Below are positions 14,013 through 56,960 of a stretch of DNA of 64,000 nucleotides, in pieces. This DNA is from Sabellastarte sp. h YS-2021 (Eukaryota; Annelida; Polychaeta; Sabellida; Sabellidae): NCBI GenBank assembly GCA_964017235.1, contig OZ024929.1, forward strand, positions 60,297,603 through 60,361,602, written 5' to 3'. The notes beneath the pieces were generated by a model. The model was not told where the DNA came from. It made no database searches and saw only the letters and a list, made by a program, of their open reading frames with translations. The position numbers and the translations under genes are program-made. Numbering within the stretch: the stretch's first letter is position 1; each line of letters starts with the position of its first letter.

Positions 14013-15861
14013 TTGTATCCAGTCTCTTCTGTCAAAGAACGCAATAGAAAGGGTGGAAAATGTAAAATCTCTCAGGTTTTACAGTCGCCTGTTCCTAGTA
14101 CCAAGCCTCACCAAAGGTGGAGGCCAGTCATAGACCTAACCAGGCTCAACACTTTTCTACATGTAGAAAAGTTCAAAATGGAAACCCCAGAGTCCATCAG
14201 GACCCCCCCTGATTCCAGGGGAATAGGTATCGTCGATAGATTTGTCGGACGCTTACCTACACATCCCCACCCATCCAAACTCAAGGAAATACCTAAGGTT
14301 TTGCTACAAGTCTCAGGTGTTCCAGTTCACCTCCCTCCCATTCGGACTAGCCACAGCCCCCCCAGGTCTTTACAATGATTGTAAAGGAAGTGAAACTAAT
14401 GGCCCTCTCCAGGGGACTCAGACTTCACCAATACCTGGACGACTGGCTGATCAGGTCCCAGTCTCAGGAGGAAGCCCAAGTGAACACTCAGGCAGTAGTA
14501 GACCTAACTCAGTCCTTGGGGTGGATAATAAATCAGGAAAAATCAGAACTGAAACCTACTCAGGTGTTTTTCGTTGTGGACTACGAATACCATCTAGATT
14601 CAACCCTTGTAAAACCCACTCAGAGAGATGGCTCAAACTTCAGGATTTGATCCTACGACTCAAGTCAAAACGTGTTTTGACTGCAAGATGTTTGATGTCG
14701 CTAATTGGGTTGCTAGCCTCAACGGAGAAAATGTTCCCGGAGGGACTCCTTCACATGAGGCCCTTTCAGTTTCATCTCAAGGAGCACTGGAGATATCCTC
14801 AATCGCTGAACAACCTCCTTCCTTGGACAGAATCCATTGCAGCCCACCTAGATTGGTGGCAAAATCCCTCAAACGTGATGAAAGGTGCAGACCTTCATCC
14901 CAAGGACCACAGTATCCAACTCTTTACCGACGCCTCAAACGAAGGTTGGGGCGCTCACTTAGATCAAAATTCTACAAAGGGTCTGTGGTCAGATCGGGAA
15001 AAAAGGCTACACATAAATGTCCTAGAATTGAAGGCGGTCTCCCTGGCCCTTCGAGACTTCAAGGACCAGTGCCAGAACCAAATAGTGCTAGTTGCGACAG
15101 ACAACTCAACAGTGGTAGCCTACATCAACAAACAAGGAGGAACTCACTCAACAGAGATGTGTGCTCTCCTGTGGAAGATCATGACCTGGTGCCATCACTA
15201 CCACATAACATTGAAAGCCAGGCACATTCCAGGGTGCCTGAATGTGATGGCCGACCTACTGTCCAGGACCAACCAAATGCAGTCAACAGAATGGTCTCTG
15301 CATCCGCGGGTATTCAAACAGACCTACCAGAAGTGGTTCACACCTCATGTAGACTTATTTGCCACTCACCTGAACCACAAACTTCCACTGTATGTATCTC
15401 CTGTCCCAGACCCAAAGGCTTGGGACATAGATGCTCTAAACATAAACTGGACGAACCTCACGGCCTATGCTTACCCTCCTATGGCTCTCCTTCACAAGAT
15501 GATCCAAAAGATCAAGCAATGCCATTGCCTGATCATCGTAATAGCCCCAGGCTGGCCAGGGATGCCCTGGTTTTGGGACCTAGTGCAGCTCTCAACAGAG
15601 ATCCCACTACAACTCCCAGTGTCAACGACCCTACTCAAACAGTCACACAAGTATGTGTTCCACAACAACCCACAACAGCTGAACCTCCACGCGTGGTGTC
15701 TAGGAGCGGACAACTCCAAGAACAAGGCTTCTCTGTGGAGGTGGCAGAGAGAATTGCTGCTCCTCAGCGGTCATCAACAAGGACCATCTACAAGTCAAAG
15801 TGGGCCCTATTTGAAAAATGGTGCAGAGAAAATTCGGTGGATTTCTCCACTCCATCTGTGA
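14013..15861 (+). pseudogene. DIRS RT-RNase H-methyltransferase-like polyprotein, frameshifted (copy 1)
   Basis: The RT fingers (QRWRPVIDLTRLNTFL, KFKMETPESI) are in one frame from 14013. FTSLPFGLATAP follows in a second frame after about 14245. The catalytic YLDD (14432-14443) is in a third frame, 14375-14650. From about 14640 the second frame resumes with the thumb (LMSLIGLLASTEK) and a complete RNase H set: FTDASNEGWGAH, LELKAV, ATDNSTVVAYINK and ADLLSR. Next comes a DLFATHLNHKLP...AYAYPP...IVIAPGWPGMPWFW block that I take for the Dam-methylase-like part known in DIRS elements. Four frame switches make it non-functional. This is the most divergent of the window's RT copies. Confidence 0.85.
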
Positions 15862-16800
15862 AACAAATCTCAGATTTTTTCATGTACCTGTACCAAGACC
15901 TAAACAGGCGCCCCTCGACCATTGATGGTTACAGGACTGCAGTCATTGACACTTTGGGCCCAACGGCCCACCATATTGCACATAATGCAGACCTTCATAG
16001 GTTACTCTCCAGTTTTCACAGGGATCGTCCAAAAAGTTCCAGAAACCTACCTAAGTGGAACCTTTCTGTTGTTCTCAATGAGATCACAAAAGCACCCTTT
16101 GAGCCTATGAAAGACACAGACCTCAAACATCTTACCCTCAAAACTGCTTTCTTGCTAGCTTTGGCCTCCAGCAAACACCGCAGTGAAATCCATGCCTGGG
16201 TCGCAAACAAAGTATTTAATCTAGGCCAATGGGAAAAGGTCGCCTTGTTCCCTTCTTCTGATTTCATAGCCAAAAACCACCTAGCAAGAAAAGGTTCTCA
16301 AAGTGTGTCTTCGGTGACTATTCCTGCTTTGACTACCATTGTAGATAGACAATTTAAAGAAGACAGGACCCTGTGTCCGGTGCGGGCCCTGAGGTACTAT
16401 CTGGACCGAACCAAAGACCTGAGAGGGTCTCGTTCCCTCCTTTTCATCTCCTTCAAGAAAGGACATACCTCAGACATCAGACCCGCTACTCTCTCTTCCT
16501 GGTTGAAACAAACCATCCTACTTTGTTATAAACAAGCAGACCAACAAGCCTTGGACGTGTTCCAAGTTAAAGCGCATGACATCCGGGCCTTCGCGGCCTC
16601 TAAGGCCTTTTACGGTGGGGTATCGGTGAACCAAATCATGCAAGCGTGTCACTTTTACAAATTTTTACCTAAAAGACCTTTCTTGGTCAGACACCGACAA
16701 CCATATGTATCTGGGACCCGTAGTGGTGGCACAAGTCCTAGATCCTTCCCCTCAGACCAGTTGTCCTCGGAAAGAAAAAAAAAGGGGGGGGGGGGCACAT
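15620..16800 (+). pseudogene. DIRS tyrosine recombinase, inactivated by small deletion (copy 1)
   Basis: One frame (open from 14628 to 16841) carries the whole recombinase: core-binding part (STRTIYKSKWALFEKWC, DGYRTAVIDTLG), the catalytic arginine in HRSEIHAW (codon 16179-16181), CPVRALRYYLDRT, and HDIRAFAAS (His 16575-16577, Arg 16584-16586). After QACH at ~16650 the expected WKxHN segment is missing and the frame changes. TFTNFYLKD with the catalytic Tyr (16666-16668) is read one frame over, followed by LGPVVVAQ. In the sister copies this is the integrase-like enzyme that circularises or inserts the element. The same frame is open for 1 kb upstream, overlapping RNase H. Confidence 0.85.
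16786..16796 (+). repeat. Poly-G tract after YR (copy 1)
   Basis: A run of about 11-12 G after an A-run, in the same relative place as in the other DIRS copies, between the end of YR and the ICR. Bases 16850-17270 downstream are 3' untranslated, with nothing else recognised. Confidence 0.8.
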
Positions 16801-17273
16801 CCGCTACAACCAAGTCTTCAGGAGTCTCTCCCAGGATCTAGGTATTCTTTTACCTTCAAGATGTTACGGGTAAGGTCTTTTTTGTTTTTTAGTTTATCAA
16901 GTAATTTGTGTAAAGGACTTATTAAGTTGTCATTAATCTCATATTCAGGTGGCAAAAATTTATGAGAATTCCAACCATTGGGCTGGTCTGTCACTCGTGA
17001 AGGGCCCCTAGGGACCCCTTAGACCTCTAAGTGAGCACTGCTGCACTTCCGTCCTACAATCAAAACATCTAGACAGTTTTTAGCACTGTCTCTCATTCTT
17101 CTTAGGTTTTTGGCTCTTCACAGGCCCGGTCTTCGGGATTGGGGCACTGTGAATGGGACTCAGAATGGTATTTCTAACACTATTTCTATATATATTACTT
17201 CAAATCTTAGAAAAAAAAAATGACATACCTTCCAGTCTCAGCTGCAATCCCGCCACCGGGCGGTTGAATTTAG

Positions 17274-17619: not shown

Positions 17620-17620
17620 A

Positions 17621-22068: not shown

Positions 22069-24103
22069 ATGTCTTCTCCCAGCCAACGTAGGGGAAGTTG
22101 TGGCCATATGATGGCAGGTTTTGATTTACACAGCGTGTGTGCACGCTGTCGAGATAAGAAGGGACAGGATCCCTGTGTAGAGAAACCTGGAGCGGATGGT
22201 ACTATTTGTAAAGCTCTTACACCTGAACAGTTGTCACAACTCTCCACGCCTTCATACAAGAACAAAAAGGAGAAACGTGAGTTAAAGTCTTCAACTCCAG
22301 CTAAGAATCCTACATCTGATGCCACTCTCAGTCCCACCCTTGTGGACCCGGCCCTAGTGTCGGTAGTGAGTGTTGTGGATGGCAAGAGCACCTCAGGGTT
22401 GCCTGGTTTGAGTGATCAGCCAGCAGAAAAAAGGCAGAAGAAAGAAGGAAAGAAGGTCTCAAGTTCTAAACCGGTCAAACCGGACAAGTCTGTCAAGTTG
22501 GTTAAATCCTCTCACCGACCATCATCATCAGACTCTACCGACCAAAAGCTAGAAGTGATGGAACAGAATTGGTCGGACCGGTTCAACCGTTTGGAAGCCC
22601 TGTTGTTGGCCAAGTCTCTGGACCGGGAGCCTACCTTCAGTACTGTCAAGGTCACACCGACCCATGCTCCACCGGCCACTGCTATCAGAGCTGAGCCCTT
22701 CTTGAAGCCTTCCGACCAACCTTCCTCTGCCCAGCCTTCTCAGAGGCTGGCATCCACTGTGTCACTGGCCACCGACCCTGCTGAAACTACCACTGCTGCT
22801 AAGGCCGACTCTGATTCATCTCAGCCCTCTCACCGACCAGGAACTTTCGGTGCAACCGGCCAGCCCTCTACTTAGAGACATTTTATAGCTGCTTTTGACA
22901 CCACTAAGAAGGATACATCTTCTAGTGATTCAGACTCTGAAAGCTGTTCTTCTGACCGGCCTCCAGTTGACTTATACCCAGAAGAGGGTGAACTATCCGA
23001 CGACCAGGAGGTCTCTCTCACCGACCCGGACCAGTCCCTCTCAGAGGAACAATCATATAGAGAGACAATGAGGGGGATTCGGTCCTACATGGGATGGACC
23101 CACATTCCAGATATGGACTCAGGGACAAAGACGTCAGATGACAACCTTTTTGCTGGGCCTTAAGCTGCAAACCCCTGGCAAGGTCTCTGTTAACCTCCCC
23201 ACGGACGAGTGGTTCTGTAACAAACTCAGTAAGCTTAATCTCACTCTGGTCCAAGGTTACCCTTCTCGTACCGCAGAAGCTGGAACTCTTCAACGGGATC
23301 AGTTTGTCCGACTGGCCAAGTCCCAGAATAAATGGTACGGCTTACACTCAGAGGCTAAGAAGGACTCCAGTAGTACTGTTAAATCTTGGGGCACTAGTTC
23401 TTCACGTATCAACAGCACATATCTGAGAATAGCTCGACAAGCCGGTATTGCTTCCAACCCGCCATTGTCCAGGCCCATTTCCCAAGAAAATTTACGCAAG
23501 TGGGAGAGATCTGCCAGGGAGTCATCCATCATATGCAACCAAGCAGCCGGGTTCAATCGCTGCCTTCGCAAGGTTCAGCAGAACATGCAAGGTCAACTTA
23601 AAGCTATCCGGACAGAATCTAAGGGCAAGACAGCAAGCCGGGTCTCTTCAGCAGCAGGTGAATTGCAGTTTCTGCTTGACTTTAATGCCAGTGTTTGTCA
23701 GGCCATGGCCAAGGCAATGGAACATTTAACGGACTTTGTCTTTGTAAATATGGCAAACACCACTCTGTTTTGAAGGGATTCTTACTTAGCATATCTCAAG
23801 GCAGGGGTGAATGCGGATACTCTCAACGCTCTCAGAGCAGCTCCACTGGAATTGGATACCTTATTCCCAGATTCTATCATCAAACAAGCCGAGGAGGACA
23901 TAGCTGCCTTTGACAGAAATCGCTCTGGGTCGGTTTATAAAAAGGGCAGGTACCACCCATATGAGAGACAGGACCGAAAATCTGACTCTAAAAAGCAAGA
24001 CAGACCAGCTTGGAAAAACATCTCGTCCCACAGCCAGAGACGTGGTAAAGGCAAGCACCAGTATTCCTCCCGACCAGCCAAGGGCCAGCAGCCTTATAGA
24101 TGA
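22069..24103 (+). pseudogene. DIRS gag protein with three lesions (copy 2)
   Basis: ATG at 22069 begins MSSPSQRRGSCGHMMAGFD, followed by a Cys-rich N-terminal motif (CARCRDK, DPC, ICKALTPEQLSQL) and a Ser/Thr/Pro-rich linker. The frame meets TAG at 22873 but continues in the same frame to about 23155 (YRETMRGIRSYMGW). There one frameshift moves it to the 23138 frame (KVSVNLPTDEWFCNKL, GYPSRTAEAGTLQRDQF, NQAAGFNRCLRKV). A TGA at 23771-23773 replaces an expected arginine codon before DSYLAYLKAG. The tail (GRYHPYERQDRKSD...SHSQRRGKG) is basic and ends at 24103. This is the structural, RNA-binding protein of the retrotransposon particle. The order is the same in copies 5 and 6. Confidence 0.8.
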
Positions 24104-24175
24104 CAATTACTGTGTAACAAATTTACCGGCAAGGCTGCTGGCCGGGAGCATTCTCCCAACAGAGACAATAGACAC

Positions 24176-24430
24176 TTGTTTACCTTTGAATGTAAAACCT
24201 CATGTTGTTCTTCATGTTCATACTGCACCCGGGCATTCCCAAAAGAAAGGAGTAAGTCCCGGGTCAGCAGATTGTCACTTCAGAGATTACAAATTAAAAT
24301 ATGTGAAAGGTGTTTCTTGTGTCACTCAATTGTGTTGTGTCCAAACTGTAGAAAATGTCAAAAATGCTGCCCCAAATCTACCTGTAGGGGCCAGACTTCA
24401 GAACTTTTGGCAAACTTGGCTCGACCTGGG
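24176..24430 (+). CDS. Cysteine-rich module overlapping the RT N-terminus (copy 2)
   Basis: In the frame two ahead of RT: CCSSCSYC, a basic spacer, then KICERCFLCHSIVLCPNCRK, CQKCC and STCRG. The pairs CxxC-CxxC-CxxC-CxxCC suggest two or more zinc sites. The same spacing occurs in copies 5 (47.9-48.1 kb) and 6 (55.04-55.26 kb), always in this frame relative to RT, although the RT frame is also conserved over the same bases (VKGVSCV ... PVGARL..FW..W). The frame stays open to 24607, and after one stop from 24668 to 25630. It leads in frame to the YR, so this may be the N-terminal zinc module of an overprinted Cys-YR protein. I know no named domain for it. Confidence 0.55.
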
Positions 24431-26300
24431 TGCCGGTCCGAAAATAGTTCAAATCCTGAGAGAGGGTTACACCCTCTCCTTTCGGATCCGGCCAAACCTC
24501 ACAAGGTCTCCAACAGTCATAAGCTGCTATGTCAATCCCCACAAGAACAGCTACCTGATGGAGGCATTACATCAGCTTATAGACAAAAATGCTGTAGAAC
24601 TGGTTGACAACCAGACCTCCCTAGGGTTTTTCAACCGGCTGTTTTTGGTACCCAAACCCAACAACAAGTGGAGACCTATACTGGACCTAAGCAAAATAAA
24701 TCAGTTCCTCAAAGTGGAGAAATTCAAAATGGAGACACCGGAAACCATCAGAACATCCCTCCAACAAGGAGAGTGGGTCACCTCTATAGACTTCAAGGAT
24801 GCCTACTTTCACATTCCAATACAGGAACAATCCAGGAAATATCTAAGATTTCATGTCCGAGGCCGGACATACCCATTCAAGGCACTTCCTTTTGGTCTGT
24901 CCACAGCGCCCTTGGAGTTCACTGTAATAGTAAAGAAGGTGAAACTGATGGCCATACACAAGGGTATAAGAATCCACCAGTACCTAGACGACTGGTTGGT
25001 ACGGGCCACTTCCCACCAAGATTGTCTCCAACATACTCGAACACTGGTCAAGATGTGCCAAGACCTAGGCTGGATGGTAAATGTAGAAAAATCAGAACTA
25101 GAACCCAAGCAAGTCTTCGACTTTGTAGGTTACCAGTTCGACCTCCGGTCCGGCAGGGTCCGACCCACACCGGACCGTTGGCAAAGTCTTCAAGAGAAAA
25201 TTCAGAGACTGCTAGTGCTACCGGTCTGTCCGGTCCGGCAGCTCATGTCCTTGATAGGTTTGTTAACAGCCACAGAAAAACAAGTTCACCTAGGCCGACT
25301 GCTCATGAGACCCATACAGTGGCACCTCAAAAACAACTGGAGGATACCGGAATCCTTAGAGAAGGTCATCCCAATACCCAAGTCTCTGCACCCACATTTA
25401 CAATGGTGGCTGATGGAAGACAATGTACTCCAAGGTCAACCATTACACCCAATAAAACATGCTCTGCAAATCTTTACAGACGCATCAAAAGAAGGGTGGG
25501 GCGCTCACTTAGACGAGCATATTGCAAGAGGGGTAAGGTCATTACTGGAAAGCAAGCTGCATATAAATTTTCTGGAACTGAAAGCAGTGTTTCTGGCGCT
25601 AAAAGAGTTCCAATACCTTTGCTCAGGTAAGATTGTCCTGGTAGCAATGCACAACACAACGGTAGTGGCTTATATAAACAAGGAAGGAGGCATGAGATCA
25701 GGCCCACTTTGTGCCCTATTGTGGAGAATCTTGACTTGGTGTTCCAAGAAGCAAGTGACTCTCAAGGCCCGACACATCCCAGGTCGCCTAAATGTAGTAG
25801 CCGACAAACTATCCAGACTGGGTCAGACCATACAAACAGAGTGGTCTCTCCTTCCAGGAGTTTTCCAAATCTTATGCAGCAAGTGGCACCGACCTCAAAT
25901 AGACCTATTTTCCACGAGGTTCAACAACAAGTTGCCTCAATTTGTGTCACGGGTTCCGGACCCCCAGGCGATAGCAGTAGACGCTCTCAGCCTACCATGG
26001 GAGCATCTGGACGCGTACGCCGACCGCCATATTGGGCAAAGTGGTGGAGAAGTTACAGAGCTCCCCATACAAGATAATCATCCTGATTGCTCAGGGGTGG
26101 CCCAACATGCCTTGGTTTTGGGACCTAGTGACCATGTCCAGTCAGGTTCCCCTCAGTCTGCCCAACTTGCCCAACCTGCTGACACAGCCCTTCAATCAGA
26201 TCCCTCACAGAAATCTGACGAATCTGAACCTCCATGCATGGCTCCTAGAGCCACATCAATCAAGGAGCAGGGCTTCTCTCAAGCAGTGGCAGTAAGAATT
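24300..26300 (+). pseudogene. DIRS RT-RNase H-methyltransferase-like polyprotein (copy 2)
   Basis: The best preserved RT: one frame from 23910 to 26369. The N-terminal PVGARLQNFWQTW and REGYTLSF blocks are typical of YR retroelements. RT: FFNRLFLVPKPNNKWRPILD, TSIDFKDAYFHIPI, LPFGLSTAPLEF, YLDD (24981-24992), FVGYQFDL, LMSLIGLLTATEK. RNase H: FTDASKEGWGAH, LELKAVFLAL, MHNTTVVAYINK (Asp to His at the third acidic site), ADKLSR. The Dam-like block starts DLFSTRFNNKLPQFVS. An indel near 26020 in the AYAFPP motif then shifts it, and IILIAQGWPNMPWFWDLV is read one frame on (26032-26295). The RNase H lesion and this indel argue against activity. Confidence 0.85.
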
Positions 26301-26490
26301 GAGGCTCCTCAGCGAGGTTCAACCAGATCAGTCTATGAGGCAAAGTGGGCCGTTTTTACAAAGTGGTGAATCACTAAACAGGTGGACTTCAGGTCTCCCC
26401 CTGTAAAGTCAGTTGCTGACTTCCTACTATGGCCTGGGCTGACTCAGAGCTCTACCATTTGGGTCCTGTAGTGGCTGCACAACAGATCCA
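26225..26490 (+). pseudogene. Tyrosine recombinase remnant, catalytic core deleted (copy 2)
   Basis: The N-terminal part IKEQGFSQAVAVRIEAPQRG and VYEAKWAVFTKW is followed by TGA at 26367-26369. After VKSVADFLL the sequence jumps at about 26430 straight to the extreme C-terminus (AWADSELYHLGPVVAAQQIH). About 800 bases containing R, HxxR and Y are missing compared with copy 5. The copy depends on another recombinase in trans, if it ever moved in this form. Confidence 0.85.
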
Positions 26491-40725: not shown

Positions 40726-40865
40726 CTTATATTGAGATTTGTATACATGTACATAGTGTAAATAGCTCATGAATCTAATTGACATGCTTCCTTCGGGAGG
40801 TTTATTTGCCTTCTGGGACTGAACTCATCCCTCTCTTCCCCTACCTCAGAGCAGGTCTGTAAGAG

Positions 40866-40891
40866 GGGGGGGGGGGGGGGGGGGGGGGGGG
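40866..40891 (+). repeat. Poly-G tract after YR (copy 3)
   Basis: About 25 G directly after CAGGTCTGTAAGA, in the conserved position. Confidence 0.9.
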
Positions 40892-41050
40892 CAATGCTGG
40901 TATAGCCCCGGCAACCGGGCTCTGGTAACCACCATGGACCTATAGGTCTCCTAAGTCAGCCTAGACCGTAGGGTAAAAATTTTGTTACCATTTATGAGTT
41001 CATTCTAAGTCCCTAGTAACTTACCCGCCGACCAAGCGGTAGTTATTCAG

Positions 41051-41145
41051 CAATTGTCCATTGAATAGGATGTATTAACGCAATAAAATTGCAAATTTAA
41101 TAAGTAAATTAAATTTTTATAAGTTAATACCCTATCCAATGGACA
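41051..41145 (+). repeat. ICR, DIRS copy 3
   Basis: AATTGTCCATTGAATAGGAT through GTATTAACGCAATAAAATTG to CCTATCCAATGGAC, the same junction structure as copy 2 with one change in the left arm (GGATAGG to GAATAGG). Confidence 0.95.
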
Positions 41146-41203
41146 GGCAAGGCCCTCCCAACTGACCCCGCTATCAGCTTACTAGGGGTCTAAATCTGTT
41201 TAG

Positions 41204-41415
41204 ACAACGAAAAAGATGAACTGACGTCACTCTGTCTAGACAGGAAGCAAGTATGATGCGCCACCTAGCGAATGCACACTACTGACCAGTCCTGCTGGTA
41301 TTATATACAGGACGTCTTTTTCTGACGTTTGGCGGGACCGGTCGTGCTGACCGGTAAAGCAATTGTCCATTGGATAGGGTATTAACTTATAATAACTTAT
41401 TAACTTTATAATTGG
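41204..41415 (-). repeat. Right ITR, DIRS copy 3 (end truncated)
   Basis: AACGAAAAAGATGAACTGAC, GTCTAGACAGGAAGCAAGTA, CAGGACGTCTTTTTCTGACG, then GTCCATTGGATAGGGTATTA. It stops about 25 bases short of the usual terminus and is followed by copy 4 sequence. Confidence 0.9.
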
Positions 41416-42740: not shown

Positions 42741-42744
42741 AGCC

Positions 42745-43860
42745 CTTCAATCAGACTCCTCACAGGAATCTTACAAACCTAAAGCTACATGTGTGGCTCC
42801 TAAAGCCTCAGCTATCAAAGAACAGGGCTTCTATGAGACAGTGGTAACAAGTATTGAGGCTCCTCAAAGAAGATCAACCAGATCAGTCTATGAGGCAGGT
42901 GGACCATTTTTACAAGGGGTGCCTCAGTAATCAGGTGGACTTCAGGGCACCCCCCTGTTGAGTCAATAGCCGGCTTCCTACTGTACCTGTTCCAGGACAG
43001 GAAGCTACAGCCAAGTATCATTGATGGCTACAGATCAGCTATTGCTGACAAACTAGGAAACATTCATAAATGTCAGCAAAATGAGAATCTCACTAATCTC
43101 CTGGATAGCTTCCACAGAGACCGACCCAAGGGTCAATGGGGGGAGGAGGGATCCCCTCCTGGAACCTCTCTTTGGTGTTGCACCCGCTGACAAGGCTCCA
43201 TTTGAACCCTTATAAGAGGCCTCTTTGAAGCATTTGATCTTCAAGACTGTCTTCCTTTTGGCGCTGGTTTTGGTCAAACACATCAAACATCAATCAGACT
43301 GGTCTAAAGTATCCTTGTTCCCTCACCCAGCCTTCTTTCCAAGAACCTGCTGGCCAAGAGGGCCCAGATAGTGTGGCCCCAGTGGTTATACTAACCCTGG
43401 CCCCCAACTCTGGATAAGTCACTCAAGTCTGATAGGTCCCTGCTTCCAGTCTGTACTGCGCTAATATTTGGACAAGACCTGAGACATCAGGCAGAACAAG
43501 GAGTTTGTTTTTGTCTCCTTTAAGAAAGGCCTTGACAAAGACATCTCATCTGCCATTATCTCATCATGGATCAAGCAGACTGTGATCCTATGTTATGGAC
43601 TCTCTGACCTAGAGGCCCTCACCTTAAACCAGGTTAAAAGTTTTAGTGAGATCACTAGTTAAAACCCATATGTGAGGGCATTCACTGCCTTCAAGGTATT
43701 CCAATAAAGAGTCTCCTTGGAACAATATTTGTGAGCCTGCCATTGAAAGTCACGTAACACCTTCACACAGTTCTATTGAAGGATGTGGCTTGGGCTGATC
43801 CAGAGCTCTACCACTTGGGACCTGTAGGAGCTGCTCAGCAGATCCACCAGTAGCCCATGT
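42745..43860 (+). pseudogene. DIRS tyrosine recombinase, degenerate (copy 4)
   Basis: Pieces follow the YR order: KASAIKEQGFYETVV (42805), YEAGGPFLQG, NLTNLLDSFHRDRPKG (43085), CPAL/FGQDLRHQ (43460), VFVSFKKGLDKDISSAI (43510). The HxxR box is broken by an insertion (GTTTTAGTGAGATCACTAGT at 43638-43657) and a stop. FTQFY is present at 43768-43782 but followed at once by a stop. Confidence 0.75.
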
Positions 43861-45650: not shown

Positions 45651-45792
45651 ATATTTGATGTGGCAATTGAGATTTCTTCATTAACATTAATCATGTAAAT
45701 ATATCTAGACTAGGGCAGGGTCAGTAGCATATTTTCTATTTCGGTATCCCGCCAGTGTAAAACCGTACCGATTCCAGGATACCAAAAGAAGA

Positions 45793-46015
45793 TTTTATTG
45801 CGTTAATACATCCTATCCAATGGACGTTAATACATCCTATCCAATGGACAATTGCTTTATCGGTCGGCGCGATCCCGCCAAACGCCAGAAAAAGACGTCC
45901 TGTATATAATACCGGCAGGACCGTTCAGGAGAGTGTATTCGCCAGGTAGCGCATTGTACTTCCTTCCTGTCTAGACAGCATGACGTCATAGCATCTTTTT
46001 CGTTTGGCGCATGGA
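45793..46015 (+). repeat. Left ITR, DIRS copy 5, with a 24-bp duplication
   Basis: Starts TTTTATTGCG. Then GTTAATACATCCTATCCAAT plus GGAC is present twice in a row (45801-45848) where other copies have it once. It continues GCCAGAAAAAGACGTCCTGT, CCTGTCTAGACAGCATGACG, TCATAGCATCTTTTTCGTTT. Confidence 0.92.
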
Positions 46016-46118
46016 GAGTGTGGACGTGTTTTCAATGAAGACGTTTTTTTTTATCTGTACAACAAATTCAACCATTTCATTTTTACTTCCAAATATTTCT
46101 ACTGATCTATCTACCATC

Positions 46119-47776
46119 ATGTCGTCCCCAGGACAGAAACGCGGCACATGTGGCCATGTTATGGCTAGCTTTGACGGCCAATTCAAATGTGCAAGATGTC
46201 GGGACAAGGTGGTGGGAGAAGACGCCTGTGTTCTCAAGAAAGACTGTAACATTTGCAAAGGGTTTACCCCTGAGCAGATTCTGCAATTGGCCACCCCCAC
46301 TTACAGAGAACGCAAGAGTAAAGAAAAGAAGTTGGTTTCGTCCTCCCCTGCTCCCACTCTCATGGACCCTTCACACGTGAGTGTGCTGGGTAAAGTGGAG
46401 GGGGACAAGGTTTTACACCCTGAAACCACACCAGCTGCGAAGAAGAGTAAACGCAGTGATTCACCCAAGCCCTCTGCCAGCAAGAAGAAGTCCAGCACTA
46501 GTAGCAGACCTTCAGCAGACGACCTGAAGAAACTGGATGATAAATGGGCAGAGAGGTTCTCCCGGCTGGAAGCCATGCTGTTAGCCAAGTCTTTCACTGT
46601 ACTGGTTGAACCGGTTGTGGCAGAAGTCACCACCAGCCAGAAGCCTTTTTCTGACCCTGTTGCTAGCACCAGCAGTCTGGCTAGAGAGAGTACCGGTTCC
46701 AGCCTTGTTCAGGCCACCGGTGAGGCTGTAGATGAGATGCAGACTGCCAGCCAGCCTCTTGAGGCTAACGGTGCCGGGACAGCAACCCAGCCTGTTCAGG
46801 CCCCCGGTTCAGTCCCTGATGTACAGCCATCCGGTGAAAGAGATCTCAGTGCAGCATCTGATAGTGAGGGTGACCAGCACAGTGTTACCGGTTCCCTGTC
46901 TAATGAGAACTACCGGTACGGGTCCCCAGACAGAGACCTCCCCAGGGAAGAGGCTGCAGATCAGGAACTTTCAGAGGAGGCCAATTATCGAGAGACAATG
47001 AGAGGTATTAGAAGTTTTATGGGTTGGCACAAGATCCCAGAGTTCGAGACTGTGTCCTCTTCTGATGACAACCCTTTTGCCGGTGCACGTGTACAGCCAA
47101 CAGTCGGGTTGCACGTCGAAACCTTCCTTCTGCCCCACCCTCCTGGGCCTTCAGCCAGGACATGCTCAGGTGTTGGGAGAGAGCAGCACGTGAACAGACG
47201 GTTATGTGTAATCAGGCTGCTGGTTTGTCAAGGTGTTTGACCAGGGTTCTGCTCAGCTGAAAACCCTACATCTGGACAAGAAGGGCAAGTCGTCTGAAAG
47301 AACGAAACAGGCTATTGATGAACTAGACTTGTGACCTTCAACCGGACAATATCTCAAGCCATGGCCAGAACTATGCAAGATTTGTCAGAAGGGGTTTTTA
47401 TCAGCATGGCCAACTTCACACTGGCGCGCAGGGACAGTTACTTAGAGTATTTACATGCCGGTGTGAAGCAAGATACTCTGAACACCTTGAGAATGTCTCC
47501 AGTACATCTTAACTCACTGTTCCCGGATCAGCTTTCACCAAGGCTGAGGAAGAAATCTGCAGAAGTGAGGAGAGGCGCTCTGCTGGCCAGTCACACAGAT
47601 GTCAAGGACGTTTCCACCCTTACGCTTCTAGTGACAAGTCTGCTAGTCATCTGGACCAGAAGTCCGGTGTCCCCGCATGGAAACAGATAAGGGACAAGCA
47701 ACAGTCAAGGAAAGGTCGTGGCAAGGCCTCAACATTCTCCCAGAAGCCGGCTAAGGGTTCCAAGCCACGTAAATGA
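46119..47776 (+). pseudogene. DIRS gag protein, internally deleted (copy 5)
   Basis: ATG 46119 starts MSSPGQKRGTCGHVMASFDG with the Cys motif CARCRDKVVGEDAC, CNICKGFTPEQILQL. Ser/Pro-rich, CCGGT-rich linker; YRETMRGIRSFMGWHKIPEF near 46990. Around 47090 about 200 codons are missing (no NLPTDEW or GYPSR block) and the frame changes. QDMLRCWERAAREQTV and NQAAGLSRC are readable at 47160-47230, then GVFISMANFTLARRDSYLEY (47390-47450) in a further frame. It ends with a basic tail at TGA 47774-47776. The in-frame ATG at 46011 lies in the ITR, so I prefer 46119. Confidence 0.8.
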
Positions 47777-47874
47777 CAATCACTGTGTAAATTCTGTGAC
47801 CGGTCAGAAGAACTCCGTTTGTGTTTACCGGTCAGACAGGCTTGAACCCACCTCCAGTTGTAGCCGGGGACAAG

Positions 47875-48140
47875 AAAGTGACTTTAAATTTGAATGTAGA
47901 CTTTTGTGTTGCAAATGCTCATATTGTCACCAGGTTGTCACAAAGGAAAGCCATAAATCCCAATTGTTGTCAAATGTACACAGAAATAAAATATGTGAAA
48001 GATGTTTCCTGTGTAGGTCACTTGAGTTCTGTAAATCTTGTCACAAATGCCCCACCTGTTGTCACCAATCCACCTGTAGGGGCAAGGTTACACAAGTGTT
48101 GGGAGAAGTGGGAAGCTCTGGGTTCGAGTCCAAAAGTAAT
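47875..48140 (+). CDS. Cysteine-rich module overlapping the RT N-terminus (copy 5)
   Basis: Within a frame open from 47718 to 48683: FECRLLCCKCSYCHQV, then KICERCFLCRSLEFCKSCHK, CPTCC and STCRGK. Cys spacing is the same as in copies 2 and 6 apart from the first pair. RT is read in the next frame over the same bases. Downstream the frame stays open over fingers and palm (to 48683), is open again from 48747, and reaches the YR. See the finding on overprinting. Confidence 0.55.
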
Positions 48141-49780
48141 CACCACACTGAGAGAGGGCTATACCCTCCCCTTCCGGTTCAGACCAAACTTGACCAGGTC
48201 ACCAAGTGTAATAAGCAACTACCACAATCCAGCCAAACAGGCCCACCTTTTAGAGGCACTGTATCAGCTGGTGAACAAAAATGCAGTAGAACCGGTAGCA
48301 AACCAAAACTGACTGGGCTTTTACAACCGGCTATTTTTGGTACCCAAACCCAACAACCGGTGGAGACCTATCCTGGACCTGAGCACCTTGAACACCTTTT
48401 TGAACACAGAGTCGTTCAAGATGGAGACCCCAGAGACAATAACAACCTCCTTACAGGCAGGGGAGTGGGTCACTTCCATAGACTTCAAAGGCGCGTACTT
48501 CCACATACCTATTCACAGTCAGTCCAGGAAGTACATGCGTTTTCACCTCCAAGGTCGGTCCTACCAATTCAAAGCCCTACCCTTTGGCCTCTCCACAGCT
48601 CCCATGGAGTTCACAGTGGTGACCAAAGAGGTCAAACTCATGGCACTGCAGAAGGGTATAAGGATCCACCAGTACCTAGATGACTGGTTGGTGAGAGCCT
48701 CTACCCACGAAACCTGTCTCCAACATACACAGACCTTGGTAGTTCTTTGCCAAGATCTAGGTTGGCTAGTGAACAAGGAGAAGTCAGAACTGGTTCCAAA
48801 ACAGGTTTTCAACTTCGTAGGTTACCAGTTCGATCTGAAAGAGGGCAAGATCAGACCCACACCAGATCGTTGGCAGGCCTTGACAGACAAGATCCAGTCA
48901 ATACTGTCCGGTCTGGTATGCCCGGTCCGACAGTTCATGTCCCTCATAGGTCTTCTCACAGCAACAGAAAAGCAAGTCCTCCTAGACTTCACATGAGGTC
49001 TATACAGTGGCACTTGAAAAACAACTGGAGGGTCCCAGAATCACTAGACAAGGTGATCCCAGTCCCCAGGTCCACCCCCACCTAAGGTGGTGGCTGGAGG
49101 AAAGCAATGTGCTACCAGGTCAACTATTACACCCTCTAAAACATGCTCTGCAAATATATACAGACGCATCAAAAGAAGGGTGGGGCGCTCACTTAGACGA
49201 GCACACTGCAAGGGGAATTTGGTCCCTTCCAGACAGCAAGTTGCACATAAACCACCTAGAGCTAAAAGCAGTCTTTCTAGCTCTAAAAGAGTTTCAAAAC
49301 CTCTGCTGCAACAAGACAGTACTGATAGCTACAGACAACACAACAGTGGTTGCCTATATCAACAAAGAGGGGGGAATGAAATCGGGCTCCCTGTGTGCCC
49401 TACTGTGGAGAATCCTGTCCTGGTGCACCAGGAAGCAGGTGACCCTCAGGGCACGTCACATCCCCAGCCGGCTGAACGTGATAGCAGACAAGCTATCCAG
49501 ACTGGGCCAGACCATTCAAACAGAGTGGTCACTTCATCCAGAAGTGTTCAAAGCTATATGCTCCCGGTGGCACCAGCCTCAAGTAGATCTGTTTGCCACC
49601 AGGTTCCACAACAAACTGCCACAGTTTGTGTCACCGGTCCCAGACCCCCAGGCATGTGCAGTCGATGCACTCAGCCTTTCCTGGGAGGACCTGGACCCAT
49701 ATGCCTTTCCACCAGCAGCCATCTTGGGCAAAGTGGTGGAAAAGTTACAGGACTATACCCTTGCAACAGGATAATCCTGA
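48050..49780 (+). pseudogene. DIRS RT-RNase H-Dam-like polyprotein (copy 5)
   Basis: N-terminus PPVGARLHKCWEKW, LREGYTLPFR. A TGA at 48310-48312 interrupts the frame before FYNRLFLVPKPNNRWRPILD. Then WVTSIDFKGAYFHIPI, LPFGLSTAPMEF, YLDD (48673-48684), FVGYQFDLKEGKIRPT. A deletion shifts the frame near 48985 (ATEKQVLLDF). RNase H is complete in the frame 49007-49774: YTDASKEGWGAH, LELKAVFLAL, ATDNTTVVAYINK, IADKLSR. Dam-like: VDLFATRFHNKLPQFVS, DLDPYAFPPAAILGKV. Another shift near 49765 leads to ILIAPGWPNMPWFWDLV. One nonsense and two shifts, with all catalytic motifs retained. Confidence 0.88.
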
Positions 49781-49789
49781 TTGCACCGG

Positions 49790-50989
49790 GATGGCCCAAC
49801 ATGCCCTGGTTCTGGGATCTAGTGGCAATGTCCAGTCAGATCCCACTGTGTCTGCCCAACATACCCAACTTAGTGTCTCAGCCATTCAACCAGGTCCTTC
49901 ACAGGAACCTGTCAAATCTGAATCTACATGCCTGGCTTCAGCTATCAAGGAGCAAGGCTTCTCTGAGGTAGTGGCAGCACGAATTGAGGCTCCTCAAAGA
50001 GGATCAACCAGATCTGTCTATGAGGCAAAGTGGACCATTTTTACAAGTGGTGCCTCTGTAATCAGGTGGACTTCAGGGCACCACCTCTGAAAGCCATTGC
50101 TGACTTCCTCCTGCACTTGTTTCAGGACAAGAAGTTGCAACCAGACACTATTGACGGCTACAGATCAGCTATTGCTGAGAAAATTGGGCAATGTCACCAT
50201 TTATGTCAGCAAAGATGAGAATCTCACTCGTCTCCTGGATAGTTTCCATAGAGACAGACCCAAGGGCAGGAGGGGCATCCCCTCCTGGAACCTCTCTGGT
50301 GCTGCACCAGTTAACAAAGGCTCCCTTTGAACCCCTGAAAGAGGCCTCCTTGAAACACTTGACCTTCAAGACTGATGGCCTTGGGTTCTGGTAAATGCAG
50401 GAGTGAGATCCATGCTTGGTTACATAAGAATATCAGACACCAGTCAGACTGGTCTAAGGTGTCCTTGTACCCTTCACCCAGCTTTCTATCCAAGAATCAG
50501 CTGACTAAGGAGGGTCCAGATAGTGTGGCCCCAGTGGTCATACCAGCCCTGGCCCCTTCTCTGGATAAGCCACTCAAAGGTGACAGGTCCCTATGTCCAG
50601 TTAGAGCCCTGCGCTACTACTTGGACAGGACCTCAGATCTTAGGCAGAATAAGGAGCTGGTCTTTGTCTCCTTCAAGAAAGGTTTTGACAAAGACATCTC
50701 TCCTGCCACCATCTCCTCATGGATCAAACAGACTGTGATCTATGAGCTCTCTGACCAGGAGGCCCTCACCTTGCATCAGGTTAAAGCCCATGATGTCAGG
50801 GCCTTTGCTGCCTCTAAGGCTTTCCAATCAGGAGTCTCCTTAGAGCAGATTTTGTCAGCCTGCCACTGGAAGTCTCATAACACCTTCACTCAGTTTTATT
50901 TGAAGGATGTTGCCTGGGCTGACTCAGAACTTTTCCATCTGGGACCTGTTGTGGCTGCCCAACAGGTGCAGCACCAAGCCCAGAAATGA
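49790..50989 (+). pseudogene. DIRS tyrosine recombinase, catalytic residues intact (copy 5)
   Basis: SAIKEQGFSEVVAARIEAPQ and STRSVYEAKWT (to about 50040), shifts near 50040, 50190 and 50340, then one clean frame 50375-50989 with the whole catalytic domain: Arg in CRSEIHAW (50399-50401), CPVRALRYYLDRT, HDVRAFAAS (His 50789-50791, Arg 50798-50800), CHWKSHNTFTQFYLKD with Tyr at 50897-50899, and the C-terminal FHLGPVVAAQQ. In DIRS elements this enzyme joins the circular cDNA to the genome without target duplications. Only the N-terminal half is frameshifted here. Confidence 0.88.
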
Positions 50990-51183
50990 GGAGATGTGTA
51001 TATATGTAAATATGTACATGCTGTAAATATGTAAAGATGTACATCATGTAAATATGTACACAATGTATACAAAAAATACAAACTCTGATTTGCTTCCCTA
51101 GGGAAATTTATTTTCATGGGACTGAACTCAGCCCCTCTCTCTCTCTCTTTCCTTCTCTCAGAACTCTCCTGAGAAAAGAAAAA

Positions 51184-51210
51184 GGGGGGGGGGGGGGGGG
51201 GGGGGGGGGG
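51184..51210 (+). repeat. Poly-G tract after YR (copy 5)
   Basis: About 27 G after GAGAAAAGAAAAA, preceded by a CTCTCTCTCTTTCCTTCTCT tract. Same position as in the other copies. Confidence 0.9.
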
Positions 51211-51371
51211 CAATGTCGGTAGACTTCCGGGTAACCGGTTAGTCGGTAGCCGACCTGGACCTCACAGGGTTCTATGACCCTAGGTCAAATGGGACTTCTC
51301 AATTTGTTTATTATGAGTTCACTTGAGTCCCTAGCAGCTTACCCGCCTTTCAAGCGGTAGTTATTCAGCAA

Positions 51372-51735
51372 TTGTCCATTGGATAGGATGTATTAACGCA
51401 ATAAAATTGCAAATTTAATGAGTAAATTAAATTTTTATAAGTTAATACCCTATCCAATGGACAGTCAAGGCCCACCCAACCAGCCCCGCTACCAGCTTAC
51501 TAGGGGTCTTACAAGGATTGGACATGAAAAAGATGCTATGACGTCACGCTGTCTAGACAGGAAGGAAGTACGATGCACCACCTGGCGAATACACTCTCCT
51601 GACCGGTCTTGCCGGTATTATATACAGGACGTTTTTTTCTGGTGTTTGGCGGGACCGGTCACGACGACCGGTAAAGCAATTGTCCATTGGATAGGGTATT
51701 AACTTATAAAAATTTAATTTACTTATTAAATTTGC
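51372..51735. repeat. ICR and right ITR, DIRS copy 5
   Basis: ICR 51372-51464 (ATTGTCCATTGGATAGGATG, TATTAACGCAATAAAATTGC ... CCTATCCAATGGAC). Right ITR about 51525-51735, ending TAACTTATAAAAATTTAATT, TACTTATTAAATTTGC. Confidence 0.95.
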
Positions 51736-52121
51736 AAAATTGTGTTCTAGTATATCCCCAATTGAGTTGGCCCACCAAGAGGAAATATGATTTGCGAAAA
51801 GAAAACATTGCTGTTTTTAAAGAAATCACTATAATGGTGCTAAAATATATAAAAATATGGGATAAAAGTTTGAAATTTCTTCAGATTTGAGGCTTGTTTC
51901 TAATACTTTACGGTTCCTCACAATATTATACCGAAAGAGTATCGAAAAATTATCAAAATACCGGCTGTAAAGTGTCACCACAGTGTTGAAGTGAATTGGT
52001 CTTGATACCGAGATACCGGTGTTACCGAACCTGCCCTAATCTTGACCCAAAAATAAGTCTCTTTTGTAAGGTTGCACTACATTAGGAACCTTCATGACCT
52101 CTCTGTTTCATATTTTTGCAG

Positions 52122-52775: not shown

Positions 52776-55062
52776 ATGGCATCACCGGGAGAGTTCAAAG
52801 GACAAAGAAAGGGTTCTTGTGTGTTGGCAAACGATTGTTTAATTTGTGAAGGATTCAGTGATGTGCAAAAAGAAAAGTTGGCAACCCCTTCATATAAAAT
52901 ACGTAAAGAAAGGAAGGCCGGTTTGTTAGTTTCCCCCCAAAAAAGTGACTGTCCTTGGTAGCTTGGATGAACAGTCATCTGTTGTTTCTTCTGCGCATCC
53001 CTCTCCACATGCACCTGTTTCTGCTTCCCCTTCTGCCTCTCATACACAGTTTTTTGTCACTGCAGAGCAATTTGAGGCAATGAACGACAAATGAGCGGAG
53101 CAGTTTGCTTGTTTTGAGGCTTTGTTATCAAGAGGCAATGTTTTTACTGTACCTAAAACAACAGTTTCTTCTCTCCCTACTCACACTGTTGTGTCATTTC
53201 AACCTTTCATAAATCCTGCTACCCGGCATACCGGTCCGGTAGTGTCCCCGGCAGATCAGGATTCTTTGTCCAAAAAAGGAGGTGAAGTTAAACTAAAAGA
53301 AAGATCTCATAAGCCCTCCAAATCTGACAAGGCTAGACCGGACTTTGGTCATCAGGCTACTGTTTCTTCCGGTCCTGCTTTTGACATCCCCGGTCTGGGC
53401 GATGATGTGCAGGAACCGGTTTTTCAGTCAATGCAAACTTCCTCTACTGCTGACATGGCTTTTCAGTCTACCGGTCCAGAGCCAACTACCAGTCTGTAAC
53501 AGAAAGTCACCGGTTCAACCTCTATGTTCACTAAAACATCCAAACATACCCATCAGGAGAGTCAATCTACCGGTCCTTTTGAGCCAGCTCCTTACCCACC
53601 GGCTGCTGCTGCTGCATCTGGTGTTTCCTTTGCTGGTCTGGGCTATGGTGTGTCTGACGTACAGTACAGGGAGCTACCTCAGCAGGAACTTTATAATGAA
53701 CTTTGTGGAGATGAGGATTCTACTGTAGAGGAAGGCGAAGTCTCTTCAGATGTTATTGATAGACAGGATCATACAGAGGATATGACATATCGTAAGACAG
53801 TCAGATCAGTCCGTTCCTTTATGGGATGGAATCACATCCCTGTTTATGAAAGTGATCTGTCAGAGCCAGACAAATCTAACAATCCCTGGAAGGGCAAGAA
53901 TCCAAAGAAGCCGGCTAGGATCTCGGTTGTCATGCCCCCTGACGACTGGCTTTGTCAGAAGTTAGAAAAGTTAAACACCACAGTGGCAGAGGGGTACCCT
54001 TCCAGGGCGCAGGATTCTGCGGGGCTAAAAAGGGACCAGTTCATCAAGATCCCCAAGAGCCAGAGTAGATGGTATCAAATACACACTCTGAGGCCAGATG
54101 GTCCCCAATGACCTGGCAAAAATCTTTTCAGTTGGAGTGACAATGAAGCCAAGGTCACCTCCCAATTTCCTCGGATTATAGAGGCTTCTGCTTATTCTCC
54201 CTCAGGTCCTCCATCTAGGCCAATATCACAGGACTATTTGCACAGATGGGAAAAGTGTGCACGTGAAGGTAGTTACTTAGTTAATAGTGCCGCAGGCTTC
54301 AACAGGTGTTCATCTGAACTGCAAGAGAGAATCTCAACAAGTGTGACTTTTCTTCAGTCAAAGATAAATAAGGGCAAGGCTCCCAAAGAGGTCACGGAAA
54401 CTCTCAAGGATATCAAGGACTATGTTACCTTTCATCAGAGCGTCTCTGTAGCTATTGGAACAGCTTTGCAACACTTGGCAGGTAGCTTGTTTGTTCACTT
54501 GCCCAACCTTATTCTTCTGCGCTGGGATTTATACTTAGAACACGTCAAGCCTGGCATTAAGTCTGACACATGGAATTTGCTCAGGAATGCCCCCATGTTC
54601 GGACATGGTCCTTTCCCCGACTCTGTTTTGTCTACTGCAGAACAAGATATTGCCAAACATGAGTCTGCTGGAGTTGCTCCAGGGCCCGGTCCGGGTGCCT
54701 CGCAGCACTCCAGTTTGAGGGATAGTGGAAGATATAGAAGTTATGAGAAGAAGAGAGAATCACAACAAGGTGCAAGTCAAGGTGACCAGGGGCAACAATC
54801 TTGGTGTCAGTTTTCTAGAAATAGGGGTCATGGCCGTGGGAGAGGTTCAAACCCTTGTTTTCCAGGTCACGAGGAAATAAATCATATAAATGACAATTAC
54901 CATTCAGTTCCAACCCAGTTAAGTTGCCAGTTAAGCAGGTTGGATCCTAAGTTGAGTCAGTTAAATCAGACTGTACATTCTCTAGTTGTGAACAAAGTAG
55001 TGAAACCAAGATCAAAACAGACTTTAAGAGACTTAGTTTGCGAAAAGGCTGTATCTTATTAA
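52776..55062 (+). pseudogene. DIRS gag protein, frameshifted (copy 6)
   Basis: ATG 52776 begins MASPGEFKGQRKGSCVLAND, with part of the N-terminal Cys motif missing, then CLICEGFSDVQKEKLATPSY. Stops near 52960 and 53497. Linker pieces at 53122-53499 and 53524-54111, the last with YRKTVRSVRSFMGWNHIPVY, VMPPDDWLCQKLEKLNTTV and GYPSRAQDSAGLKRDQF. After TGA near 54110, 54238-55062 gives LHRWEKCAREGSYLVNSAAG, HLAGSLFVHLPNLIL, LYLEHVKPGIKSDTWNLLRN, and a Gly/Arg-rich tail (HGRGRGSN). The most nearly complete C-terminal half of gag in the window. Confidence 0.82.
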
Positions 55063-55280
55063 GATGTTGTCAGTCATGCTCATTCTGTAACTTTTCGCGG
55101 GCAGCCACAAAGAAAAGGCTTAGGCCCCGCTCTGTCTTTGAACAAAATAAAAGTTGTCAAAGGTGTCTCTTGTGTAAGTCAATGTCTTTCTGCGCCATTT
55201 GTACCAAATGTCCCACATGTTGCCACAGAGATCAGTGTTGGGGGAAGGCTTCAGAGCTTCTGGCAGGTTTGGCAAAAGTT
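55038..55280 (+). CDS. Cysteine-rich module overlapping the RT N-terminus (copy 6)
   Basis: Frame open 55038-55712: RCCQSCSFC, basic spacer, KSCQRCLLCKSMSFCAICTK, CPTCC, HRDQCWGK. Same Cys spacing and same relation to the RT frame as in copies 2 and 5, although this copy is the most divergent. It overlaps the last 25 bases of gag. Confidence 0.55.
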
Positions 55281-56960
55281 GGGATCAAATCCAAGAATGG
55301 TTTCAATTTTGAAAGAAGGTTACACTCTTCCTTTCAAGGAAAGGCCACTTCTCTGCCGCTTTCCCTTGATAGTAAGCAAATATGCCAACCCACTCAAAAA
55401 CAAGTCGCTTTCGGAAGCTCTTTCCTCCCTCATACAAAAGCAAGCAGTGGAAAGGGTGGTTGTCAAGTCTTCTCTAGCTTTTTACAACCGTCTCTTTCTA
55501 GTTCCAAAGCCCAACAGGAAATGGCGACCAATATTGGACCTGAGCAAACTCAATCTTTTCCTAAAAACAGGGACTTTCAAAATGGAGACCCCGGAGACCA
55601 TAAGACTGTCCCTCCAAAGAGGGGAATGGGTCACTTTGATGGACTTCAGCGATGTCTACTTCCACATTACTATAGCTCAAAGGTCCAGAAAATACCCAAG
55701 GTTTCATCTTAACAAACTCAATTACCAGTTCATCTCTCTTCCCTTTGGTTTGGCAACGGCCCTGTTGGAATTTACCAAAGTGGTCAAGCAAGTAAAACTG
55801 ATGGCTCAAGCCCGGGGTATAAGGATCCACAAGTACCTAGATGACTGGTTGTTAAGAGCCCCGTGCCAGGCAACTTGCATTCAACATACCTGGACCCTCT
55901 TCAGCCTTTGCCACGAGTTGGGTAGTAAACTTGAAGAAATCGGGACTGACCCCTCAGCAGGTTTTCAATTTTGTCGGTTACTGGTTCGACCTGTTGACTG
56001 GTCGGGTTCTTCCCACTCAGGACAGGTGGACATCCCTACAGCAAAAGCTAAAGTTCATTAAGGCCTGGAACTGTTGCACAGTCAGACAATTCATGTCTCT
56101 GATAGGGCTTCTGACAGCAACAGAGAAACAGGTGTGGTCAGGTCGCCTTCACATGCGAGCCATTCAGTGGCATCTGAAGCGTCACTGGCATGTTCCCGAG
56201 AGTCTGGAAAAGGTCATTCCTCTTCCCACTTCTCTGCATCCACATCTGGATTGGTGGCTAAACGAGAGCAATGTTCTTCGGGGCCAACCTTTAAATCCCC
56301 TTCAACGCGCTCTACAGATATTTATAGACGCCTCAAACGAAGGTTGGGGCGCACACTTAGGCAAGAGGCGTTTGGTCAGACCCAGAAAGTCACCTCCACA
56401 TCAATTTTTTATAGCTAAAAGCAGTTTTCCTGGTTTTCCAGCATCTTTGAGGGGACCAGATTGTTCTGATAGCAACGGACATGAGAACAGGCTCTCTTTG
56501 TGCCCTCATTTGGAGACTTCTGTCCTGGTGTCACCCCAGAGGAATAGTTCTGAGGGCTCGACACATTCTAGGTCGCTTGAATGTGATAGCAGACAAACTC
56601 TCCAGACAATCAGGTGATCCAGACAGAGTGGTCCCTATCTCAGCAGGTGTTCAATCTCTTGTGCTCCAGATGGGACCGTCCTCATGTAGACCTGTTTGCA
56701 ACCCGGTTCAATCACAAACTCTCCAAGTTTGTATCACCGGTGCCGGATCCGACAACCTGCGCAGTAGACGCCCTGAGTCTTCCATGGGAGAATCTAGATG
56801 CTTATGCATTCCCTCCAGTCTCCCTGCTCACCAAGGTGATCTCCAAAGTGATGGATCAAGGCTGTCGCAGAATGATTCTAATTGCTCCAGGGTGGCCCAA
56901 CATGCCTTGGTTTTGGGACCTGGTCAGTCTGTCGGCTCAGATTCCCTTCAGGCTTCCACT
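55138..56960 (+). pseudogene. DIRS RT-RNase H-Dam-like polyprotein (copy 6)
   Basis: Frame 55138-56061: VGGRLQSFWQVW, LKEGYTLPFK, FYNRLFLVPKPNRKWRPILD, WVTLMDFSDVYFHITI, SLPFGLATALLEF, YLDD (55834-55845). One base is lost near 55920, and FNFVGYWFDL, LMSLIGLLTATEK, FIDASNEGWGAHL follow in the frame 55931-56617. RNase H then breaks: LELKA is scrambled near 56420 and NTTVVAYINK is deleted after IATD at 56480. Dam-like frame 56614-57123: HVDLFATRFNHKLSKFVS, NLDAYAFPPVSLL, MILIAPGWPNMPWFWDLV. Confidence 0.85.

Follow-up and report, generated by a model that had tools for sequence, protein, structure and literature searches.

The stretch of DNA described here, 64,000 nucleotides from the polychaete Sabellastarte sp. 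h YS-2021 (contig OZ024929.1, positions 60,297,603 to 60,361,602 of the forward strand; hereafter the window), is eukaryotic DNA in which DIRS1-like tyrosine-recombinase (YR) retrotransposons occur in several copies, most of them with frame lesions. This report deals with the reading frame of the YR, which runs across the gene of reverse transcriptase (RT) and RNase H, and with the way in which ribosomes may enter that frame. The original prediction, made from the letters of the sequence, was that an overprinted frame links a Cys-rich module to the YR across the whole RT/RNase H gene. All DNA-level tests were limited to the copies inside the window. Three protein searches gave 761, 224 and 1038 relatives, the last number drawn from 7994 scored candidates, and from the best 120 of each search 343 distinct proteins were fetched. 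The features of the copies that are needed below are as follows.

45792..51737, plus strand: copy 5, DIRS1-like element (termini approximate)
46119..47773, plus strand: copy 5 Gag, located by tblastn with the relative P0137 (frame lesions at about 47080-47580)
47774..47782, plus strand: copy 5 Gag stop TGA followed by CAATCA, a CARYYA motif (from the sequence, by pattern match)
47786..48083, plus strand: copy 5 Cys-rich module in the YR frame (a 1-nt indel near 47823 splits the module from the Gag frame)
48084..49990, plus strand: overprinted YR-frame linker of copy 5 (stop at 48681; indels common to the RT frame; end approximate)
48082..49774, plus strand: copy 5 RT/RNase H frame, RVT_1 (open pieces 47800-48312, 48313-48996 and 48986-49774)
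49990..50989, plus strand: copy 5 tyrosine recombinase domain, located by tblastn with the copy 1 YR frame (frame lesions; start approximate)
22069..24100, plus strand: copy 2 Gag, P0137 residues 1-636 (one frame change near 23157)
24101..24109, plus strand: copy 2 Gag stop TGA followed by CAATTA (from the sequence, by pattern match)
24113..24391, plus strand: copy 2 Cys-rich module (continues the Gag frame without a break)
24392..25990, plus strand: overprinted YR-frame linker of copy 2 (19.3 stops expected, 2 present)
23904..26369, plus strand: copy 2 RT/RNase H reading frame (an indel near 25990 turns it into the YR frame)
54891..54899, plus strand: copy 6 TGA followed by CAATTA where the Gag stop would be (upstream of it the Gag frame is shifted)
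54951..55712, plus strand: copy 6 Cys-rich module with the beginning of its overprint, an open reading frame (ORF)
14613..16841, plus strand: copy 1, of another family, overprint and YR in a single open frame of 742 aa

Inverted termini with an internal complementary region (ICR), RT/RNase H, YR, a Gag-like ORF and a long pol/YR overlap, all among the marks of DIRS1-like elements, were found. In copy 5, 45792-45825 is inverse-complementary to 51374-51407 and 51681-51737 to 51407-51463, the ICR at 51367-51463 matches both termini, and the inverted arms 45826-46001 and 51526-51703 pair at 90.6%. The Gag-like first ORF is supported by the full-length relatives P0137 and P0150, and tblastn of P0137 (636 aa) on copy 5 puts its residues 1-339 at 46119-47129 and 407-636 at 47102-47773; no credible Pfam match was obtained with the Gag pieces scanned. 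RT is matched by RVT_1 in copy 5 (3.1e-24) and copy 2 (2.3e-24), while an RNase H-type match, RVT_3 (2.8e-4, 21.3 bits), lies just under its cut-off of 21.6. Phage_integrase matches copy 5 at 50363-50986 with E 1.1e-4 and 22.4 bits, under the curated cut-off of 27.1; R, HxxR and Tyr residues that presumably represent the YR motifs can be picked out by eye, and YR-frame relatives were numerous in the protein search. A methyltransferase domain 3' of RNase H had no Pfam match in the copy 2 ORF, no dedicated profile being used, and single scans of the copy 2 RT ORF against viral and against prokaryote contigs gave no related loci. In addition to these copies, 35839-41392 has copy 5-like termini with inverted arms (35858-36030 and 41206-41378, 97% complementary), and its interior, which neither of the two Gag queries used could match, has a wide gap in RT/RNase H, so it looks like a DIRS copy with an internal deletion. 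A piece resembling the left terminus of copy 5 lies at 17620-17821, about 4 kb upstream of copy 2 Gag, and the DNA between them carries long tandem arrays at 18110-21813 (321-bp and 133-bp units among others).

The YR frame lies two bases ahead of that of RT, that is, the third base of each RT codon is the first base of a YR codon. Because of this, a stop in the YR frame needs an RT codon ending in T before AA, AG or GA. The open stretches predicted for copies 1, 2, 5 and 6 were located as claimed, the YR frame being open at 47691-48683 and 49057-49971 in copy 5, at 24104-24607 and 24608-25630 in copy 2, at 14613-16841 in copy 1 and at 54951-55712 in copy 6. The predicted near absence of stops therefore stands, whereas the frame is continuous in copies 5 and 6 only when small indels are followed. 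Its openness goes beyond what RT codon usage would give, as the original prediction implied: in 2000 synonymous shuffles which kept the RT protein and its codon usage, over alignment-verified RT codons (2269 codon junctions in five copies), 92.0 stops were expected (sd 7.1; lowest shuffle 65) and 8 were observed. By copy, the observed and expected numbers are 0 and 18.9 (copy 1), 2 and 19.3 (copy 2), 2 and 9.9 (copy 4b, 41550-43860), 1 and 17.1 (copy 5) and 3 and 26.7 (copy 6). The segments 15519-15821 of copy 1 and 49755-50045 of copy 5, which are YR-frame pieces, were left out of this pooled count. In the third frame over RT, stops are in excess (202 against 162.7 expected).

The open frame could be an untranslated by-product, arising from the codon usage of RT, from dinucleotide bias or from shared ancestry, and it is true that the copies are kin and that copy 6 Gag has a mild depletion of +2-frame stops (34 against 42.9 expected, sd 4.2), so that some background bias may exist. 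The avoidance, however, persists not only in the codon shuffles but also in two further controls. When only codons beginning with A or G are compared, so that the first base of the next codon is kept, RT codons ending in T number 8 of 402 before AA, AG or GA and 112 of 486 before the others (Fisher P 3.5e-23). In a permutation which allows for shared ancestry, the codons of one copy were swapped only where the partner codon and the RT residue are identical, a scheme that leaves RT protein and substitution pattern intact and only uncouples each codon from the one that follows; fewer YR-frame stops than expected, given the partner codons, were found in 13 of 13 ordered copy pairs (P up to 0.067). 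Moreover, no avoidance is seen in DNA that codes for YR only, where the same test on T-ending codons gives 61 of 162 against 63 of 182, or in the +2 frame of Gag in copy 2 (30 stops against 33.7) and copy 5 (46119-47079, 32 against 30.7). Chance or composition as the cause of the open frame was rejected on the strength of the shuffles, the A/G control and the YR-only DNA, and the by-product explanation as a whole is most improbable. In the same aligned codons of the five copies there are 10 in-frame stops of RT itself, close to the 8 in the YR frame, as if both frames had been open before decay. We are highly confident that the overprint is translated.

The amino acid sequence that this frame spells over RT, on the other hand, is free to vary. 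Identity in the YR frame is as expected from the RT codons, the observed and expected values being 0.471 and 0.469 for copies 2 and 5, 0.363 and 0.367 for copies 2 and 6, and 0.349 and 0.352 for copies 5 and 6; over the 13 ordered pairs neither identity (P 0.21-0.94) nor BLOSUM score (P 0.125-0.95) departs from expectation. Four-fold sites of RT in the overlap, many of them near saturation, are not slowed relative to four-fold YR sites outside it, divergence being higher in the overlap in seven of the ten pairs which have both zones and lower in three. In the family of copy 1, represented by P0232 (1002 aa, 1534 member sequences), the median difference from P0232 over 42 full-length YR-frame clusters is 15.8% for the overprint and 1.7% for the YR part, a comparison that bears on divergence and not on openness, since these gene models were selected for being open. 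The suppression of synonymous substitution in RT which had been predicted is not borne out, and the purifying selection predicted for the +2 frame applies to the Cys-rich module described below and not to the overprint. A second conserved protein over RT was rejected on the lack of amino acid constraint, the lack of a synonymous slowdown and the divergence just given. Since stops are avoided without amino acid constraint, the overprint is stop-avoiding yet free in sequence, and it looks like a spacer with selection on openness only. With 12.5% Pro, 9% Arg, 12% Ser and a net charge of +6.4 per 100 residues in P0232, these 500-600 residues are probably a basic, Pro/Arg/Ser-rich and disordered linker. 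As it appears to be translated and carries no sequence message, its role would be that of bridging.

The Cys-rich module was found where it had been predicted, in the YR frame of copies 2, 5 and 6 with conserved Cys spacing, and its end meets the conserved start of RT (PVGARL in copies 2 and 5). Among 75 module sequences (the 72 core-spanning ones of 128 matching fetched proteins, and three rows from the window) the 14 core Cys columns are 92-100% conserved, with a mean of 0.97 against 0.725 in the other columns. A block of 31 codons shared by the three copies has nine Cys codons, the first and second bases of which are invariant in 18 of 18 cases, whereas the remaining codons have 19 invariant positions out of 44 (P 1e-5), and four of the nine alternate between TGT and TGC, a change silent in the module frame and Val/Ala in the RT frame. 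The module is constrained in its own frame. Stops of the RT frame inside this zone were also counted, and with just 0.9-1.8 expected per copy they are too few for a selection test. From the spacing of its Cys residues the module is probably zinc-binding; a profile search, which had been proposed for it, gave no zinc-type Pfam family among 43 members (E up to 1), and a sequence search of the PDB gave no match.

The placing of the module on the YR frame is correct and has to be completed, because the module is also in frame with Gag. Gag of copy 2 ends with TGA CAA TTA CTG TGT and the module continues in the Gag frame without an indel, and the sequence UGA-CAA-UYA, which fits CARYYA, is present in all three copies having the Gag-module junction. 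TGACAATYA has three plus-strand matches in the window, all at Gag ends, and one minus-strand match; as 1.79 are expected on both strands, the count by itself is no evidence, and position and frame carry the weight. Any two of the copies share 12 of the 14 bases around the stop, while in ungapped flanks of 60 bases they share 13-27. Of 71 fetched proteins which carry the C-terminus of Gag close to their own end, 66 terminate at the residue of the stop site, and five protein clusters have a sense residue there, Trp in P0006, P0121 and P0123 and Leu in P0124 and P0152, from which they pass in frame via Q-S/L-L-C to the module. The site is also crossed by RT-frame readings (35, after 35 unrelated matches among 70 pattern rows had been removed by eye and the motif read manually), which imply YGA-YAA-YYA in 32 cases, hence TGA-YAA-YYA wherever Gag stops. 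In addition, ATG codons are scarce in the YR frame of copy 2 (2 against 7.0 expected) and copy 5 (3 against 7.3), and the first in copy 2 is the 434th codon past the Gag stop. The arrangement of Gag, module and YR frame and the conserved context of the stop are computational observations. CARYYA promotes readthrough of UGA as well as UAG, and UGA with CARYYA gave about 15% in one mammalian reporter, according to the sections consulted of two papers (PMC3542737, PMC4132726). Both the stop with its CARYYA context and a selected in-frame extension, namely the module, continuous in copy 2 and in the five clusters, are present here, and the module is best read as a putative Gag-readthrough extension, not simply as a domain of YR.

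We therefore favour, with moderate confidence, a reading in which DIRS1-like elements of this kind make their YR by dual coding, in the order Gag, leaky stop, Cys module, linker and YR, and in about the same measure we would take readthrough to be the entry into the YR frame. Most ribosomes would end Gag at the leaky UGA before CAAUYA; a minority would read through it, translate the module in the Gag frame, cross the entire RT/RNase H gene in the second frame and finish with YR. The product predicted from the frames is a Gag-YR fusion protein, and selection would keep the linker stop-free without holding its sequence. Ribosomes would reach RT/RNase H, which has the +1 frame with respect to Gag, by a different route. 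Copies 2, 5 and 6 and the 35 gene-model readings all have this +1 frame running open past the Gag stop; that UGA-C sorts ribosomes three ways, termination giving Gag, readthrough Gag-Cys-linker-YR and a +1 slip Gag-RT, is an unlikely extension of the scheme.

Several observations weigh against this reading. Only copy 2 among the copies of the window has an indel-free run of Gag, TGA and module; a single-base indel follows TGA CAA TCA in copy 5, and in copy 6 the Gag frame is shifted upstream of TGA CAA TTA and a further stop stands at 54948. Faulty splicing by the gene predictor may explain the two clusters with Leu. Depletion of ATG is unclear in copies 6 and 1 (P 0.28 and 0.30), and neither module nor linker was given a fold by AlphaFold (mean pLDDT 45). 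Downstream of the stop no RNA structure is seen (z scores 0.08, 0.20 and -0.68), and the idea of one was rejected, although type I readthrough can do without it. Finally, the family of copy 1 enters the overprint from an AUG of its own and not via a Gag stop: its YR ORF begins at an AUG inside the RT gene, its RT models begin at their own Met, and the Cys pattern occurs in none of its best 120 relatives. Both families nevertheless hold the overprint open despite the different entry, which suggests that translation through RT is what selection maintains.

Other routes into the YR frame may be considered. After terminating at the UGA of Gag, ribosomes might restart at a nearby AUG or CUG and make a Cys-overprint-YR protein separate from Gag. 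In 15 of the 343 fetched proteins a Met directly precedes the first Cys of the module, P0004 and P0018 seemingly start at an ATG overlapping the TGA of Gag, and in copies 2 and 5 CTG is the third codon past the stop, directly before the first Cys. The 15 proteins, however, are a biased sample because gene models must begin at Met, and among the 35 RT-frame readings the codon before the first Cys is implied to be CTG or TTG in 26 and ATG or GTG in 3. Reinitiation at the overlapping ATG was rejected for copies 2 and 5, in which it lies in the third frame and that frame dies after five codons. Moreover, reinitiation requires neither the frame of Gag nor CARYYA; it is the strongest of the alternatives and still a doubtful one. 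Alternatively, an intron could remove the Gag stop or fuse Gag to YR without any readthrough, and several public gene models do hop frames here, necessarily via annotated introns. Gene predictors make such hops at any stop, and removal of RT by splicing would make a stop-free overprint needless, yet stops are avoided across the RT/RNase H codons; splicing is accordingly quite unlikely. The module might also belong functionally to Gag, being nucleocapsid-like and present on a minority of Gag, with YR cut off or made otherwise. In favour of this are its frame and the use of Gag zinc motifs in classifying YR retrotransposons (PMC4157794, in the part consulted), but a Gag-only extension has no need of the 500-600 further codons that are open towards YR, and we judge it improbable, though less so than splicing.

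The closest known systems are compared here as they are described in the sections consulted of each source. YR and RT/RNase H ORFs frequently overlap extensively (PMC6681497), and half of 28 DIRS1-like elements have a long pol/YR overlap, the mollusc elements being without it (Piednoel et al. 2011, PMC3266345). Like those elements, the present ones have Gag, RT/RNase H, YR, inverted termini with an ICR, and a YR ORF which overlaps pol and keeps the catalytic YR in its non-overlapping 3' end; unlike in that account, YR is here linked to Gag via UGA-CARYYA and the Cys module, and the overprint is stop-avoiding and sequence-free. DIRS-1 of Dictyostelium likewise has three ORFs and a pol/YR overlap, and neither a Cys module nor a readthrough link is described in the part consulted (PMC5633606). 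A precedent for a zinc-type module N-terminal to YR is the DIRS1-type element of Ectocarpus, in which an ALOG domain comes after an FCS-type zinc ribbon (Iyer and Aravind 2012, PMC3537659), whereas here there is a bigger Cys cluster without a Pfam match, an overprint between module and YR, and the frame of Gag. As in type I readthrough of tobamoviruses and others, for which no RNA structure is listed in the tobamovirus case (PMC3542737, PMC4132726), a stop with CARYYA precedes an in-frame extension; natural type I cases are generally UAG, and the present putative one is UGA in a YR retrotransposon. Gammaretroviruses also have an in-frame stop after Gag which is read through to a Gag fusion, as is predicted here, but with UAG, a pseudoknot and pol as the extension, while here the stop is UGA and the extension is one that leads to YR, pol having a different frame.

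No report of Gag-YR readthrough or of a selection test on the overlap was found in the openly licensed literature on DIRS, as far as titles and the beginnings of abstracts tell, and DIRS is not mentioned in the part consulted of a large review on recoding (PMC5009743). The Gag link and the pattern of selection appear to be new within the openly licensed literature searched, the pol/YR overlap itself being known. How a DIRS recombinase is expressed from an ORF across pol is not explained in the consulted parts of these papers, and UGA-CARYYA after Gag offers a specific candidate entry point. If it is true, YR retrotransposons would join the elements which make a minority Gag-enzyme fusion by readthrough. 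The overprint also offers a clear-cut example from nature of dual coding in which openness is all that is selected.

The window has other features as well. At 10436-10481 there is a match to Rfam RF00032, the stem-loop of histone 3' UTRs, with 35.8 bits, which exceeds the gathering threshold; it lies just 3' of the open frames 9140-10408, which have a MADF/Myb-SANT match and a Gln-rich end, an odd position for a non-histone ORF. On the minus strand, 27788-28519 encodes a transposase ORF of 243 aa with a DDE_Tnp_4 match (1.1e-30), which we take to be Harbinger-like. Furthermore, a tandem-repeat family of about 145 bp occurs at 34886-35704, 58153-58842 and 60879-62196, the last in the opposite orientation.

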